Made by a program: the position numbers and the translations under genes | The notes under the pieces: model-generated | Databases searched by the model: none | What the model saw: only the letters and a program-made list of their open reading frames with translations | Told to the model about the DNA's origin: nothing | Shown here: piece after piece, positions 27,336 to 53,249 of the stretch | How the letters are laid out: each line of letters begins with the position of its first letter | Numbering within the stretch: the stretch's first letter is position 1 | Assembly (NCBI RefSeq): GCF_012275515.1 | Contig: NZ_JAAZQL010000009.1 | Span: forward strand, 1-64,000 | DNA: 64,000 bases | Direction: 5' to 3' | DNA from: Novosphingobium sp. SG707 | GTDB lineage: Bacteria; Pseudomonadota; Alphaproteobacteria; Sphingomonadales; Sphingomonadaceae

Positions 27336-27411
27336 TGGTGCCTGGGGACGGGATCGAACCGCCGACACCGTGATTTTCAGTCACGTGCTCTACCAACTGA
27401 GCTACCCAGGC
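27336..27411 (-). tRNA. tRNA-Phe (anticodon GAA)
   Basis: The minus strand folds as a 76-nt tRNA: acceptor stem GCCTGGG/CCCAGGC, D arm with AGCTCAGTTGGTAGAGC, anticodon stem CGTGA/TCACG around the loop CTGAAAA (anticodon GAA), and T arm with GGTTCGATCC. The CCA end is encoded. It lies downstream of yacG on the same strand and upstream of the integrase remnant, so it is the probable integration site of the island to the left. Confidence 0.97.
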
Positions 27412-32425: not shown

Positions 32426-32457
32426 GGGGAGAGGCGCAGCGCACCTCTCCCCTTTTT
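32426..32457 (+). terminator. Rho-independent terminator of the receptor gene
   Basis: GGGGAGAGG (32426-32434) pairs with CCTCTCCCC (32444-32452), followed at once by five T. It lies 28 bases past the receptor stop. It also shows that the uvrC start must be the ATG downstream of it. Confidence 0.9.
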
Positions 32458-32482
32458 GCGTGATGGGGCCTATCTGGGCGGG

Positions 32483-34420
32483 ATGGTTGATGATGCGAAC
32501 AATCCGCCCGACCGCGCGGCGGACCGGTTTAATGAGGACAAGGCGGTAAGCCTGATCCGGGGCGGGGGCGAGCGGCCCGATCTGGACGCGGGTGTGGCGG
32601 CGATCCGCGAGGTGCTGGCGACCTTGCCGGTGCGGCCCGGCGTGTATCGGATGCAGGACGCGCGCGGCGACGTGCTCTATGTCGGCAAGGCGCGGGCGCT
32701 GCGCAACCGCGTGGCCAATTATACGCAGGTGGATCGGCTGCCTCTGCGTCTGCAACGCATGGTGTCGCAGACGCGAAGCATGACCATCGTGACCACCAAC
32801 AGCGAGGCCGAGGCGCTGTTGCTGGAAGCGCAGCTCATCAAGCGGTTTCGCCCGCCTTATAATGTGCTGTTGCGCGATGATAAAAGTTTTCCTTTTATTT
32901 TGCTGCGTTCCGATCATGATTTTGCGCGAATTATGAAGCATCGCGGCGCGCGCCGGGCCGAGGGCAATTATTACGGCCCCTTTGCCAGCGCCGGTTCGGT
33001 CAACACCACGATCAACGCCTTGCAGAAACTTTTCCTGCTGCGAAGCTGCACCGATTCCTTCTTCAGTCGGCGTGACCGGCCCTGCCTGCTGTATCAGATC
33101 AAGCGGTGCAGCGCGCCCTGTGTGGACCGGATCAGCAAGGAGGATTACGGCGAACTGGTGCGTCAGGCGAAGGATTTCCTTGGCGGCAAATCGAACGCGG
33201 TTCAGCGCGAGATAGAGGCGCAGATGAGCGCGGCGGCGGAGGATCTCGATTTCGAGCGCGCCGCCATGTTGCGCGACCGTCTGCGCGCGGCCACCTTTAT
33301 CCAAGGCTCGCAGGCCATCCATGCCGAGGGCCTGCCCAATGCGGACATCTTTGCCTGCGCCGAAAAGGCGGGGCAGATCGCGATCCAGGCCTTCTTCATC
33401 CGTGGCGGCCAGAATTGGGGCCACCGCGCCTTCTTTCCGGCCCGCACCGAGGGGATGGAGATGGGCGAGGTGCTGCAAAGCTTCATGGCGCAATTCTATG
33501 AGGAAGTGCCGCCCCCGCGCGTCATCCTGCTCGACCGCGCCTTGCCCGAGGCCGATCTGCTGGCCGAGGCCTTGAAGGAGGCCGCAGGCGGCAAGGTCGA
33601 AATTACCATCCCGCAGCGCGGCGACCGCAAGCGCCTTGTCGAACAGGCCGAGCGCAATGCGGCCGAGGCGCTGGACCGCCGCATGGCCGAGAGCGGCAGC
33701 AAGGCCAAAGTCTGGCGTGAAATGGCCGATTTCCTCGAACTGGACGAGCCGCAGCGGATCGAGGTTTACGACAACAGCCATATTCAGGGCACCCATGCGC
33801 TGGGCGCGATGATCTGCGCCGGGCCGGACGGGTTCATCAAGAACCAGTACCGCAAATGGAACATCCGCGAGGCCCAGACCAACGACGACTTCGCCATGAT
33901 GCGCGAGGTGATGACCCGCCGCTTTGGCCGCGCGATGGAGGAAGATCCCGACCGCGATAAGGGCCAGTGGCCCGACTGCGTGCTGATCGACGGCGGCAAG
34001 GGACAGATGAGCGCGGTGAAAGCGGCGCTGGAGGAACTGGGCGTTGAGGACGTGCCGCTGATCGCCATCGCCAAGGGACCGCACCATGGTCGCGATGGGC
34101 GCGAGGTGTTCCATTTCCCCGATGGGCGCGAGAAAATGCTGCCTGTCAATTCGCCCGTCCTGTTCCACCTGCAACGCATGCGCGACGAGGTCCACCGCTT
34201 CGTCATCGGCGCCCACCGCGAAAAGCGCAGCCGGGCGATCACGGCCTCGCCGCTGGACGAAATCCCCGGCATCGGGCCTGCGCGCAAGCGGGCTTTGCTG
34301 CTGCATTTCGGCACCGCCAGTCGGGTGAGGGCGGCGGCGCTCGATGACCTTATGCGCGCGCCCGGTGTGTCAGAGGCGGTGGCGCGGACGGTGTATGATT
34401 TCTATCATCCGGGGGGGTGA
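32483..34420 (+). CDS. uvrC: Excinuclease ABC subunit C
   Basis: This 645-residue protein makes both incisions in nucleotide excision repair. The GIY-YIG domain is at about residues 50-130 (PGVYRMQD, VLYVGKARALRNRVANY), followed by CLLYQIKRCSAPC, the UvrB-binding helix pair (AEDLDFERAAMLRDRL), the RNase H-like nuclease domain (EVYDNSHIQGTHALGAM, VLIDGGKGQ) and the C-terminal helix-hairpin-helix pair (IPGIGPARKRALLLHFG). ATG 32483 lies after the receptor terminator and gives the conserved length. An earlier in-frame ATG at 32408 precedes the terminator and is rejected. Confidence 0.97.
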   Translation: MVDDANNPPDRAADRFNEDKAVSLIRGGGERPDLDAGVAAIREVLATLPVRPGVYRMQDARGDVLYVGKARALRNRVANYTQVDRLPLRLQRMVSQTRSMTIVTTNSEAEALLLEAQLIKRFRPPYNVLLRDDKSFPFILLRSDHDFARIMKHRGARRAEGNYYGPFASAGSVNTTINALQKLFLLRSCTDSFFSRRDRPCLLYQIKRCSAPCVDRISKEDYGELVRQAKDFLGGKSNAVQREIEAQMSAAAEDLDFERAAMLRDRLRAATFIQGSQAIHAEGLPNADIFACAEKAGQIAIQAFFIRGGQNWGHRAFFPARTEGMEMGEVLQSFMAQFYEEVPPPRVILLDRALPEADLLAEALKEAAGGKVEITIPQRGDRKRLVEQAERNAAEALDRRMAESGSKAKVWREMADFLELDEPQRIEVYDNSHIQGTHALGAMICAGPDGFIKNQYRKWNIREAQTNDDFAMMREVMTRRFGRAMEEDPDRDKGQWPDCVLIDGGKGQMSAVKAALEELGVEDVPLIAIAKGPHHGRDGREVFHFPDGREKMLPVNSPVLFHLQRMRDEVHRFVIGAHREKRSRAITASPLDEIPGIGPARKRALLLHFGTASRVRAAALDDLMRAPGVSEAVARTVYDFYHPGG

Positions 34421-34437: not shown

Positions 34438-34652
34438 AAGGGGGCCTCCGGCGGGCAAAGGGACTTGTCCCTTTGCAATCCCGTTAATGGGGAGGGTTCC
34501 TGCGGCGGCGTTCTATTTTATTAAAAGCCTGCGGCGCTGGTATATTGCGCCGCAGGCTTTTCAAAATTCCGAGGCCGCGTCCGACACTTTGCGGCTGAAC
34601 CCATAACGCAACGCAGACAGTAACGGGAGCGCGAGGGTCTAGACCCTCGCAT
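34438..34652. repeat. Three-hairpin dispersed repeat, copy 1
   Basis: Between the convergent ends of uvrC and the acetyltransferase gene lies an element with three hairpins in order. They are CAAAGGGAC-TT-GTCCCTTTG (34456-34475), a 15-bp stem with A and T tails (34523-34561), and the perfect palindrome GCGAGGGTCTAGACCCTCGC (34631-34650). A second copy with the same blocks in the same order and orientation is at 52260-52499. Shared blocks include GGGGCCTCCGGCGGGC before the first hairpin, CGCGTCCGACAC before the last part and GACAGTAA followed by GGGAGC before the palindrome. It contains no ORF. Confidence 0.85.
34523..34561. terminator. Bidirectional terminator within repeat copy 1
   Basis: AAAAGCCTGCGGCGC pairs perfectly with GCGCCGCAGGCTTTT across a nine-base loop. 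The T-rich tail reads on both strands, so it can stop transcription from uvrC (plus) and from the acetyltransferase gene (minus). Confidence 0.85.
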
Positions 34653-34663
34653 CAAAACCCTTC

Positions 34664-35869
34664 TTAAATCCCAAACCCAGCCCCGCCCAATTCCCGCCGA
34701 GCCATAACCCCAAACAGGCCCCGCCGAACCGCCCCGCCGATCTCGATTGAGACCCGTCCCACCGGGCGGCGCTCATGCCACAGGTGGGTGATCATCGGAT
34801 GGGTTTCATCCGCACAGCTATCGACCCAGCCCAGCCCCGGCATATCCAGCATCGCCAGATTTTCGCGCTGCAACAGCACGCCGGGGGAATAGGCGCTTAA
34901 CGTCTCATCATAGGCGGTCTTGAACATGAAGGCGCCGGGCTTGGTCATAAAGGTTGCCAGCATGGCGATAGGCCGCCCGTCCAGCGTCATCGACAGCCGT
35001 TCAAGCCGCCCCCGCGCCGCCGCGCCATGCAGCGCCTCTCGCCACAGCGCCGTGGTCGCGGGCAGGCAGGCCAGCGCCGATCCGGCCTCGCCCTTCCACC
35101 CTGCGGCTTCCAGCTTCAGGAAATCCTCGCACCAGGCCGAAAGGTCGTCCTCGCCTTCATGGCGCACAAATTCCAGCGTGCCCAATTCGCCCAATCGGTT
35201 GGCCTGACGCCGGTATTCCTTGCGCTTCTTGCCCGAAACCGTCGCTTCGAAATAAGCCTCGGGCGACAGGTCGCTCTGCAGCATCACATGCTGTTTGCGC
35301 CCCACTAGCGCGGCGTTGCGCCCCTGCTCGTTCAGCACATCGCGCAAGGCATCGGCCACCGCCCCCGACAGCGGCAATTCGCCCAGATGCAGGAACAGGC
35401 CCAGCCCGCCCTGCGCATCGGCCCAGGCCAGCAGCGCCCGCCAGAACGGCCTTTCCAGCCCCCGCGCCACCAGCGGCGCGCCAAGGAAGCCGTTGGGATG
35501 CGTCCAGCCGGCCCAATGCGGGATGGGGCGGGTGTAATAGCGGCTCTGGCGCACAATGGGCATGATCCCGGCCAGATCGCCGCCCATTTCAAAGCGCAAT
35601 ATCCGCACCCGTCCATCGGGATCGAGCCCGCGCAGCGCAGGCAGCAGATACCAGCTTTCGAAAAACGGGTTCGGCTCGCTGGCCCACATGGCCAGAGCAT
35701 CCCACGCCAACATCGCCCCCATATCCTGCATCTCGCGCCAGTCGACGCTGCGGATTTCCCCCGCAGGCGCGGGTTTGGGCGGCAATTGCGGCGCGGGGTT
35801 GGGGCCGGGTGGCAAGCGCGAAGGCGCGACAACAGGCTTGGCGCGAATAAAATTGGGCTGGCTCGCCAC
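34664..35869 (-). CDS. FemAB/CelD-like GNAT acetyltransferase
   Basis: This 401-residue protein has the double-GNAT layout of the group often annotated as cellulose biosynthesis protein CelD or BioF2-like acetyltransferase. A Pro-rich N-terminus (about residues 15-38) is followed by the first half (WDALAMWASEPNPFFESWYLLPAL) and the second GNAT half (about 200-370: SGKKRKEYRRQANRLGE, then GEAGSALA and FKTAYDETLSAYSPGVLLQ). The YSPGVLL segment near the end is the typical acyl-CoA-binding mark. It probably modifies a polysaccharide or lipid precursor. It faces uvrC across the three-hairpin repeat. Confidence 0.8.
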   Translation of the reverse strand: MASQPNFIRAKPVVAPSRLPPGPNPAPQLPPKPAPAGEIRSVDWREMQDMGAMLAWDALAMWASEPNPFFESWYLLPALRGLDPDGRVRILRFEMGGDLAGIMPIVRQSRYYTRPIPHWAGWTHPNGFLGAPLVARGLERPFWRALLAWADAQGGLGLFLHLGELPLSGAVADALRDVLNEQGRNAALVGRKQHVMLQSDLSPEAYFEATVSGKKRKEYRRQANRLGELGTLEFVRHEGEDDLSAWCEDFLKLEAAGWKGEAGSALACLPATTALWREALHGAAARGRLERLSMTLDGRPIAMLATFMTKPGAFMFKTAYDETLSAYSPGVLLQRENLAMLDMPGLGWVDSCADETHPMITHLWHERRPVGRVSIEIGGAVRRGLFGVMARRELGGAGFGI

Positions 35870-52247: not shown

Positions 52248-52349
52248 GTTTTGAGGTAGGAGGGGCCTCCGGCGGGCAAAGGGACTTGTCCCTTTGCAAT
52301 CCCATTAATTTTGGGTGGGACCGCAAGCTGGGGTGTTTTGGAGTTGATG

Positions 52350-52385
52350 GCCTGCGGCGCAATTAGAAAGCTCCGCAGGCTTTTT
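52350..52385 (+). terminator. Terminator within repeat copy 2
   Basis: GCCTGCGG (52350-52357) pairs with CCGCAGGC (52373-52380) and is followed by five T. It should stop transcription coming from cobS on the plus strand. Confidence 0.8.
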
Positions 52386-52412
52386 ATTGGATACGTCGCG
52401 TCCGACACCTGA

Positions 52413-52448
52413 CGCTGAACCCGCTGAACCCGCTGAACCCGCTGAACC
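52413..52448. repeat. Four tandem copies of a 9-bp unit
   Basis: CGCTGAACC occurs four times head to tail without a mismatch. Copy 1 of the surrounding element has only one similar unit (CGGCTGAACCC). The number of units is thus variable between copies and likely varies between strains. Confidence 0.9.
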
Positions 52449-52502
52449 CTTGGCACGACAAAGACAGTAATGGGAGCGCGAGGGTCTCGACCCTCGCATT
52501 AT

Positions 52503-53249
52503 CTATTCCCCCGGATAAAACGCCCGGTTGAAAAACAGCCCATCAGGCGGCGCATTCACCGGCAACGCCTGCCGATTGCGCGCGGCCAAGGCTTCGCCCA
52601 CCCGCTCCACCGGCCATTGCCCCAGGCCGACAAAAGACAGCGCCCCCACCATCGATCGCACCTGATGGTGGAGGTAACTCCGCGCGGCGGTTTCGATGAT
52701 CACTTGATCGCCCTGCCGCCGCACGGTCAGGCTGTCGAGCGTCTTAAGGGGGGAGGCGGCCTGACAATGGACCGAGCGGAAAGTGGTGAAATCATGGTGG
52801 CCAACCAGCGCCTGCGCGGCCTCATGCATCGCCTCGGCGTCCAGCGGTTTGGCCACCTGCCACGCATGGTTCAGTCCGATGGTCAGCGGCGCGCGGCGGT
52901 TGACGATGCGATAGATATAGCTGCGCCCGATGCAGGAAAAGCGCGCATGCCAGTCATCGGCCACGACCCTGCAATCCAGCACCGCAATCGGATCGGGGCG
53001 CAGATGGTAATTCATCGCCTCCATCAGGCGGAAGGGGGCGATGTCCTTTTGAATATCGACATGGGCCCGCATGAACAGCGCGTGGACCCCGGCATCGGTG
53101 CGCCCGGCGGCAAACATCACGGCCTGCTCGCCGGTGACGCGTTCGATAGCTTCCTCGACGGCCTGCTGGATGCTGGGGCCATGCGCTTGCCGCTGCAGGC
53201 CCATGAAGGGCGTGCCGTCAAATTCCAGCGTAAAGGCGAAACGGGTCAC
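52503..53249 (-). CDS. truA: tRNA pseudouridine synthase A
   Basis: This 248-residue protein makes pseudouridine at tRNA positions 38-40. The catalytic Asp is in [16 protein letters not shown]. Other family pieces are [35 protein letters not shown] and [16 protein letters not shown]. The GTG at 53249 overlaps the fmt stop by four bases (GTGA) and gives the normal N-terminus. It is the second gene of fmt-truA and ends four bases from repeat copy 2. Confidence 0.94.

Follow-up and report, generated by a model that had tools for sequence, protein, structure and literature searches.

A hairpin-armed, REP-like repeat family of Novosphingobium whose gene-bearing copies differ in their inserts between sister species

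Two intergenic sites in a 64,000-nucleotide stretch of Novosphingobium sp. SG707 (the window, part of a 186-kb contig in a 5.64-Mb genome of 41 contigs) were found, by end-to-end alignment, to hold full-length members of one repeat family, in which two outward-facing hairpin arms flank a central hairpin, T. The family is common to sister species at orthologous places, and its arms are better kept than its spacers. In some members a small gene sits between the arms; where sites could be compared, sister species have the flanks and arms in common but not this insert. This suggests that the hairpin ends mark sites of gene swapping, the gene usually differing between species at the few places that can be compared. 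With a probability of roughly 0.6, we read the window copies as the empty form of a REP-like composite element, with L+R or L+L arms around T, placed directly behind stop codons, and the family as a set of integrase-free docking and exchange cassettes, the mechanism of exchange being one that we infer.

The initial annotation had recognized the same five blocks, in the same order and on the same strand, at 34438-34652 and 52260-52499, and aligning the two copies over their whole length bore this out. The places were right, but the ends had to be moved to 34443-34653 (copy 1) and 52264-52500 (copy 2), both on the plus strand and both of the empty form L-T-R. Copy 1 matched our covariance model with 212.5 bits over model positions 1-215, being itself a member of the underlying 21-copy alignment A2; copy 2 matched with 176.9 bits and aligned with copy 1. 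Copy 1 is built, in this order, of arm L, a variable inner segment J, hairpin T, a segment I and arm R. Arm L (34444-34482, plus strand) comprises the head GCCTCCGGCGG, a hairpin at 34455-34476 with the stem GCAAAGGG/CCCTTTGC, and the tail AATCCC; the lead once listed as a separate block belongs to this first arm. The inverted repeat T (AAAGCCTGCGGCGC..GCGCCGCAGGCTTT, 34524-34560, plus strand) has a stem of 12 pairs, with 97.4% of cells paired over 96 copies. Segment I (GCGTCCGACAC .. GACAGTAACGGGAGC, plus strand), whose approximate limits of 34566-34630 were drawn from alignment A2 and a comparison of inner-segment models, leads to arm R, the hairpin of which (GCGAGGGTCTAGACCCTCGC, 34631-34650, plus strand) is a perfect palindrome, GCGAGGGTC/GACCCTCGC. 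As arm types, L is GCCTCCGGCGGGC followed by a stem and AATCCC, and R is GGGAGC with a GCGAGGG stem. In copy 2, all 39 bases of arm L (52265-52303, plus strand) equal those of copy 1, T lies at 52348-52382 (plus strand), segment I is longer by 26 alignment columns of CTGAACCCG-type units absent from copy 1, and the R hairpin (52478-52497, plus strand) has the apex TC where copy 1 has TA.

Both copies lie between convergent genes, as had been noted. Copy 1 begins 23 bp behind the end of a UvrC-like gene (32456-34420, plus strand; Pfam UvrC_RNaseH_dom, E 3.1e-50), and the stop codon of a GNAT-domain gene (34664-35869, minus strand; Acetyltransf_6, E 6.9e-22) follows 11 bp after it. Copy 2 is followed after 3 bp by the stop of a TruA-like tRNA pseudouridine synthase gene (52503-53249, minus strand; PseudoU_synth_1, E 5.5e-35), its other neighbor being an 85-aa ORF of weak score and without a Pfam match. 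Rfam returned only a tRNA above its gathering score in the window, plus one match at E 0.1, far under its own; a tRNA gene lies at 27339-27411 on the minus strand.

Genome-wide searches showed that these are far more than an isolated pair. Outward arm pairs spaced by 40-250 bp gave at least 131 short copies in the SG707 stretches fetched, and a DNA search with copy 1, in which 40 of 189 candidates were scored, gave at least 40 places with a complete or nearly complete element. The covariance model, built on 21 copies, returned at least 150 genome rows, all at E<=4.5e-17, some of which are one place read on both strands because the element ends are inverted repeats. An L-arm pattern had 205 matches in the SG707 genome and its reversed control none. 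A free-standing 10-mer signal, such as a DNA-uptake word, was rejected, since 172 of the 195 occurrences of CCTCCGGCGG in the SG707 pieces sit inside arms.

Sixty-two SG707 stretches (1.096 Mb, window included) contained 138 clusters: 46 L-T-L, 72 L-T-R in either direction, no R-T-R, and 20 that were partial, longer or had T unscored. Plain arm-T-arm units with outward arms, that is, inverted doublets as in REPINs, made up 118 of the 138. The two sides of T usually differ, one being a J flank and the other an I flank, and no element was assigned R on a J flank. Among 131 SG707 elements, 57 clearly and 61 weakly combined J:L with I:L or I:R, the remainder being I-I (1 clear, 3 weak) or J-J (9 weak), so that one side alone switches between R and L in SG707. 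Hereafter, C-numbers denote contigs (of the SG707 genome unless G039 is named), G-numbers other genomes and L-numbers fetched loci. R-R pairs are present in G017, in 3 of 3 clusters at three loci. Two of the at least 150 model rows were listed for contig C1 (1.197 Mb), which is probably a megaplasmid, because a 20-kb piece of it matches a 1.32-Mb N. humi plasmid over its full length with 93.4% identity.

Positions were scored against genes called by an in-house codon-usage caller rather than a published one. Across 784 kb of contiguous SG707 DNA, 58 clusters, lone arms included, were found in convergent (30), tandem (26) and divergent (2) gaps, and none inside genes. Over 400 kb with 46 convergent, 251 tandem and 47 divergent gaps, the three kinds held 12, 15 and 0 of the 27 elements, respectively, an enrichment in convergent gaps (12 elements per 46 against 15 per 298 other gaps; Fisher p=3e-5). 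The proposed convergent location thus holds as an enrichment, but the number of copies in tandem gaps is nearly as high, at 26 of the 58 clusters in 784 kb. The distance from stop codon to element start had a median of 14 nt and quartiles of 8 and 21 (277 sides, SG707 and G039 pooled). Published REPs are placed in the same way, behind genes in convergent or unidirectional gaps and often <20 bp from the stop, and the element shares the traits of the REP superfamily, namely, high copy number and intergenic location between convergent or unidirectional genes, as given in the accessible part of PMC3733652. A lone R arm stands between divergent genes at the same place in both species (SG707 C8:98567-98612; G039 C12:105974-106019).

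The family is kept at orthologous places. SG707 is mostly 90-93% identical to Novosphingobium sediminicola at the loci that could be matched and 90.6% identical to G039 over 343 kb of long matches. Forty-five of 47 clusters in 400 kb of G039 were placed by both flanks (the two that could not be placed were left out), and 43 of these 45 had a scored element at the same SG707 place; the two exceptions retain an altered R hairpin and a remnant of an arm, respectively. Identity over 40 ortholog pairs was 0.94 for the L arm, 0.86 for the R arm, 0.82 for T, 0.67 for the spacer and 0.89 for the flank. Over 96 copies, 95.9% of stem cells were paired, against 90.5% in shuffled and 36-47% in slid controls, a figure flattered by the mixing of L- and R-bearing copies and by an alignment fitted to the structure. 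The stems covary across copies, though partly owing to the L/R mixture. The reading as a dispersed repeat with conserved structure is supported, and the suggested non-autonomous mobile repeat is borne out in that the family behaves as a non-autonomous REP-type element. A long-range stem of TCCCGTTA and TAACGGGA joining the two ends was rejected, as it showed no covariation and 475 of 500 shuffles reached its paired fraction; the match is better accounted for by common descent of the two ends.

The arms are partly homogenised as well as conserved. The comparison of orthologous hairpins was confined to arms with exactly one hit per strand in both partners: 14 of the 44 L hairpins and five of the 15 R hairpins were identical, and changed stem pairs were more often broken in one partner (9) than compensated (6). 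By eye, eight of the 44 L apices and four of the 15 R apices had switched as a block, among forms that are used elsewhere in the genome too (CGGGGG, ACTTGT, TCTCGA; TCTAGA, ACGAGT). In seven of nine apex-switched elements the interior, compared for 35 of the 40 ortholog pairs, exceeded 95% of random non-orthologous pairs in similarity; in one it was just at that limit and in the last under it. Alike interiors together with switched apices point to short conversions between copies in most cases; replacement of whole elements is argued against by interior identity in the seven, not in the other two. Two further observations concern altered copies. At SG707 C8:111030-111061, an L-T-L element has lost its middle and is reduced to a single long, near-perfect palindrome, and this site holds a whole element in G039 (C12:93406-93617) and a gene in N. 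umbonatum. A stretch of ~60 bp (..GCATCGCTGATGCCAAAAACCGGTTCCCACTTTTTGGC..) lies in the L-hairpin apex at L066 9109-9389 (SG707 C3:429109-429389) and at L184 5843-5950 (N. umbonatum) and may be a second small repeat targeting L hairpins.

A minority of elements, in SG707 and sister species and all outside the window, are loaded with a small accessory gene enclosed by the arms. At the orthologs of C8:117228 and C9:91410 in N. umbonatum and N. ovatum, ~600 bp with a small ORF lie between the same outward arms. Seven of 71 outward arm pairs were loaded in a set of 75 loci (5 of 80, non-sphingomonad, were left out), with a G+C of 0.42-0.56 against 0.62-0.69 in the flanks. In SG707, seven arm brackets with inserts were seen against the 131 short copies; in contiguous sequence there were none against 58 clusters in 784 kb, and two against 11 short elements and two lone arms in 300 kb. 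In N. umbonatum, 400 kb contained four two-armed elements, two of them loaded. Many loaded elements have two inner motifs in common at a distance of ~100 bp from the arms, endA (GAAGGCCGCTGCGCGGCGGGG) and endB (GCCGCTTCGCGGGAAG), each recognised in 18 of 25 loaded elements. Exact endA, 21 bases, had nine matches in four of nine genomes searched, eight of them within an L-L bracket with an ORF. Sixteen loaded elements in stretches chosen through such ends, a set selected accordingly, included 11 in convergent gaps and 10 with both motifs. Toward the gene, endB runs into a stretch ending TTGCGGACAT (12 of 18 within 2 mismatches, 0.6 in shuffles), by our reading a putative promoter -35 region. 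An endB-like hairpin is kept in 11 of 131 SG707 short elements and in 3 of 44 in G039, the 11 including C8:117228 and C9:91410, the empty SG707 partners of the first loaded sites.

Six of 22 cargo proteins tested exceeded a Pfam cut-off, as DUF6615, Asp/Glu racemase, DUF4826, DUF4304, alpha/beta hydrolase and, in a long bracket, reverse transcriptase; the other 16 ORFs had no match above it, and some of these may not be genes. Homologs of the cargo were found on plasmids in two of two cases tested, and PADLOC, run on five proteins, found the reverse transcriptase alone. The latter (L369 15963-17282, SG707 C4:277963-279282; RVT_1, E 6.7e-21; best DRT-type PADLOC model RT_UG17) lies in a bracket (C4:277309-279963) whose L arms are 2.6 kb apart and enclose at least one other ORF, with two copies of a ~130-bp stretch, seen by eye, beside it. 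This bracket is counted among the 16 loaded elements; the cassette reading does not rest on it.

The inserts differ between species, each represented by one genome. At site X, SG707 (C4:292035-293679), N. sediminicola (L190) and G039 (C35:12609-13285) share both flanks (91.6-94.0% by blastn) and have ends that are 0.87-0.93 alike, and their three inserts have no mutual blastn match. At site Y, SG707 (C3:171723-172494) and G039 (C3:70401-71195) hold unrelated inserts between flanks that are 0.92-0.93 alike, and N. umbonatum (L187) holds a third insert, with one flank matched only (78.7%). The inner ends at Y diverge more than the flanks (0.78-0.80 versus 0.92-0.93), which indicates that exchange boundaries differ among sites. 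Site W encloses a 143-aa ORF of 41% G+C in SG707 (C2:124266-124900), while N. sediminicola (L232) and G039 (C2:106267) have 93-aa proteins that are 57% identical to each other and unrelated to the SG707 insert; both flanks are shared, at 89-92% to SG707, and homology ends at the L arms. The 93-aa pair has a dS of 0.72, a dN of 0.29 and a dN/dS of 0.40, its flanks being 93% identical. Overall, flanks at X, Y and W are 89-95% identical between sister species whose inserts are unrelated; alternative gene content between conserved flanks, a trait of minimal mobile elements, was observed in three species at X, two at Y and three at W. Unrelatedness was judged by blastn, because the identities that a pairwise aligner gave for the cargo (0.60-0.82) were about those of a shuffled baseline (0.73). 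At five further sites with both flanks matched, other species are loaded and SG707 is empty (C8:117228, C9:91410, C2:246230, C4:79404) or collapsed (C8:111030). N. ovatum holds yet another insert at C2:246230 (site Z), with one flank matched.

DNA matches to the element occurred in 11 of 41 genomes of the genus, SG707 included, and the full model, at E<=1e-6 with strict filters, was found in 8 of 397 genomes of the Sphingomonadaceae, again including SG707. The L-arm pattern was absent from 397 other genomes drawn across the phylum. It was present in 95 of 247 genomes of the Desulfovibrionia, the class of Fundidesulfovibrio, with up to 240 matches per genome, against a single match in all for the reversed pattern; one Selenomonadaceae MAG also had a match. 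In Desulfovibrionia loci L290-L309, the free stem positions pair in 19 to 21 of 21 distinct arms, and the hairpins, with their CCTCCGGCGG head, stand mostly behind genes in the loci seen (the class of G434). Thirty-four arms at 30 Desulfovibrionia loci were positioned by a gene caller trained on Novosphingobium: 18 were tandem, 9 convergent, 1 divergent, 2 inside genes and 4 at edges. In the IMG/VR matches, the free stem positions pair in 15 to 18 of 21 arms, and some of these matches look like chance. On the phage-like IMG/VR contig 2519899530 (L326, L327), the same hairpins stand close behind ORFs. An autonomous element between the arms of viral contigs (L324, L326) was considered and rejected, since by ORF reading the brackets hold ordinary-looking or phage-like genes. 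On a mobilizable Roseomonas mucosa plasmid (NZ_CP025190, L331), one L-arm-like hairpin lies near IS transposase genes.

In the docking and exchange model that we favor, the near-identical arms, with 205 L-arm matches, would serve as recombination boundaries, and short crossovers or conversions within them would swap the segment in between, without an integrase of their own. The convergent place behind two genes would tolerate an insert, presumably because no promoter is disturbed there. In addition, as has been suggested for REPs, the hairpins could affect the 3' ends of mRNA where they follow stop codons. No recombinase was identified, and the exchange could equally come from genes entering elements, or being lost from them, along other pathways. 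We counted against docking that loaded elements are a minority, that both window copies are empty, that most cargo ORFs tested lack a Pfam match, that the loaded set was chosen by motif and endA and endB were each recognised in only 18 of its 25 loaded elements, that the inner ends at Y diverge more than the flanks, that the N. umbonatum copy at Y and the N. ovatum copy at Z match by one flank, that broken pairs outnumber compensated ones (9 > 6) and that two of the nine apex-switched interiors stay within the random range. A wider version, which we put forward only tentatively and would sooner doubt than accept, is that the ~200 arms make each element a docking site, any bracketed gene being swappable into any other by arm recombination, with the empty three-hairpin form as the resting state and the L arms as a cross-phylum REP class headed by CCTCCGGCGG and tagged neither GTAG nor CGTC.

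Several other explanations were weighed against docking and exchange. The element might be an ordinary REP/BIME-type repeat, a pair of palindromes, formerly mobile, that persists behind genes and influences mRNA 3' ends, translation near the stop or DNA topology, with inserts that are incidental in a tolerant gap. Its placement <20 bp behind genes is that of published REPs (PMC3733652), its inverted doublets with less conserved spacers resemble REPINs (PMC3116915), as far as the accessible parts of these papers go, and 131 short copies stand against seven SG707 brackets with inserts. This account nevertheless leaves unexplained the unrelated inserts between the same arms at X, Y and W and the inner ends common to many loaded elements, and neither a GTAG or CGTC tag nor a RAYT was found; we regard it as unlikely, though well worth keeping in mind. 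A RAYT-driven REPIN family would fit the inverted doublets in high copy, but transposase searches (Pfam Y1) of SG707 and 13 further genomes with arm or model matches lent it no support, the single partial match in SG707 being IS200-like by reading and 11 of the 13 having none, and we give it hardly any credence for SG707, barring a RAYT that has since disappeared or has diverged beyond reach of the Pfam model.

A miniature transposon with passenger genes, moved as a whole from arm to arm by a transposase supplied elsewhere, would fit the inverted ends, the high copy number, the patchy occurrence in the genus (11 of 41 genomes, SG707 included) and the stretch ahead of the gene that many loaded elements share. 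We consider it improbable, as 43 of 45 sites are common to SG707 and one sister species, no clean empty site appeared among four odd sites that were aligned, and different inserts at one site need replacement rather than insertion. Finally, the double-sided intrinsic terminator for convergent genes that the initial annotation had proposed finds some backing in the symmetric GC-rich central hairpin with its A and T tracts and in the enrichment in convergent gaps. The T run directly after the stem, however, is just 3 long in 153 of 218 stem ends and reaches 4 or 5 in 23, a consensus scan gave no terminator-like site at T in either window copy (in copy 2 it marked the R hairpin instead, on the plus strand), and 18 two-armed elements have no scored T, 12 of them also lacking any other central stem of >=6 pairs. 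T is thus no canonical terminator, and a terminator module as the nature of the element is very improbable.

REP-like repeats are abundant in bacteria, and the reason for their persistence is debated. If the docking model is true, such repeats help to carry small genes of unknown function from strain to strain, and the abundant empty copies chart where genes could enter. From the loaded sites comes a set of small exchanged genes worth functional testing, and the CCTCCGGCGG arm is a simple marker for the same search in Desulfovibrionia.

Among known systems, the minimal mobile elements of Neisseria are similar in that one site between conserved genes can hold different genes and no integrase is involved. 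In Novosphingobium, hairpin arms bound the variable gene, and such arms recur at many other places in the genome, mostly as empty elements. Integron gene cassettes are single accessory genes that have structured DNA ends and vary between strains, whereas our elements are scattered single sites behind host genes, not arrays, and have two inverted arms. Phage morons, in which a single gene is inserted as its own unit between conserved genes, differ in that the units described here are chromosomal and bounded by repeat arms.

The element also resembles REPs. No description of it was found in the open-access literature as seen mostly through titles and abstracts; papers containing the letters GCCTCCGGCGG were unrelated by title, and the matches listed for CCGCCGGAGG included no description of it. 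A word search of the RepRanger paper (PMC12306157) found neither "sphingo" nor "CCTCC" in the text available. CGTC-type REPs have been described in sphingomonads, including a CGTC-2 family in N. aromaticivorans (PMC3733652, in part). By eye, neither a GTAG nor a CGTC tag stands at the foot of the palindromes in 21 aligned copies, the feet being GCCTCCGGCGG/AATCCC in L and GGGAGC in R. With REPs, BIMEs and REPINs, as portrayed in the accessible portions of PMC3733652, PMC3116915 and PMC2817692, the element shares short palindromes, inverted pairs and high copy number, the location in convergent or tandem gaps, often within 20 bp of stop codons, heterodimers and few loop types. It differs from them, on the same partial texts, by having no GTAG, GTGG or CGTC tag and no RAYT found, by the third, central hairpin of most copies, by an arm R that is one-sided in SG707, and by its loaded form, in which a gene lies between the arms.
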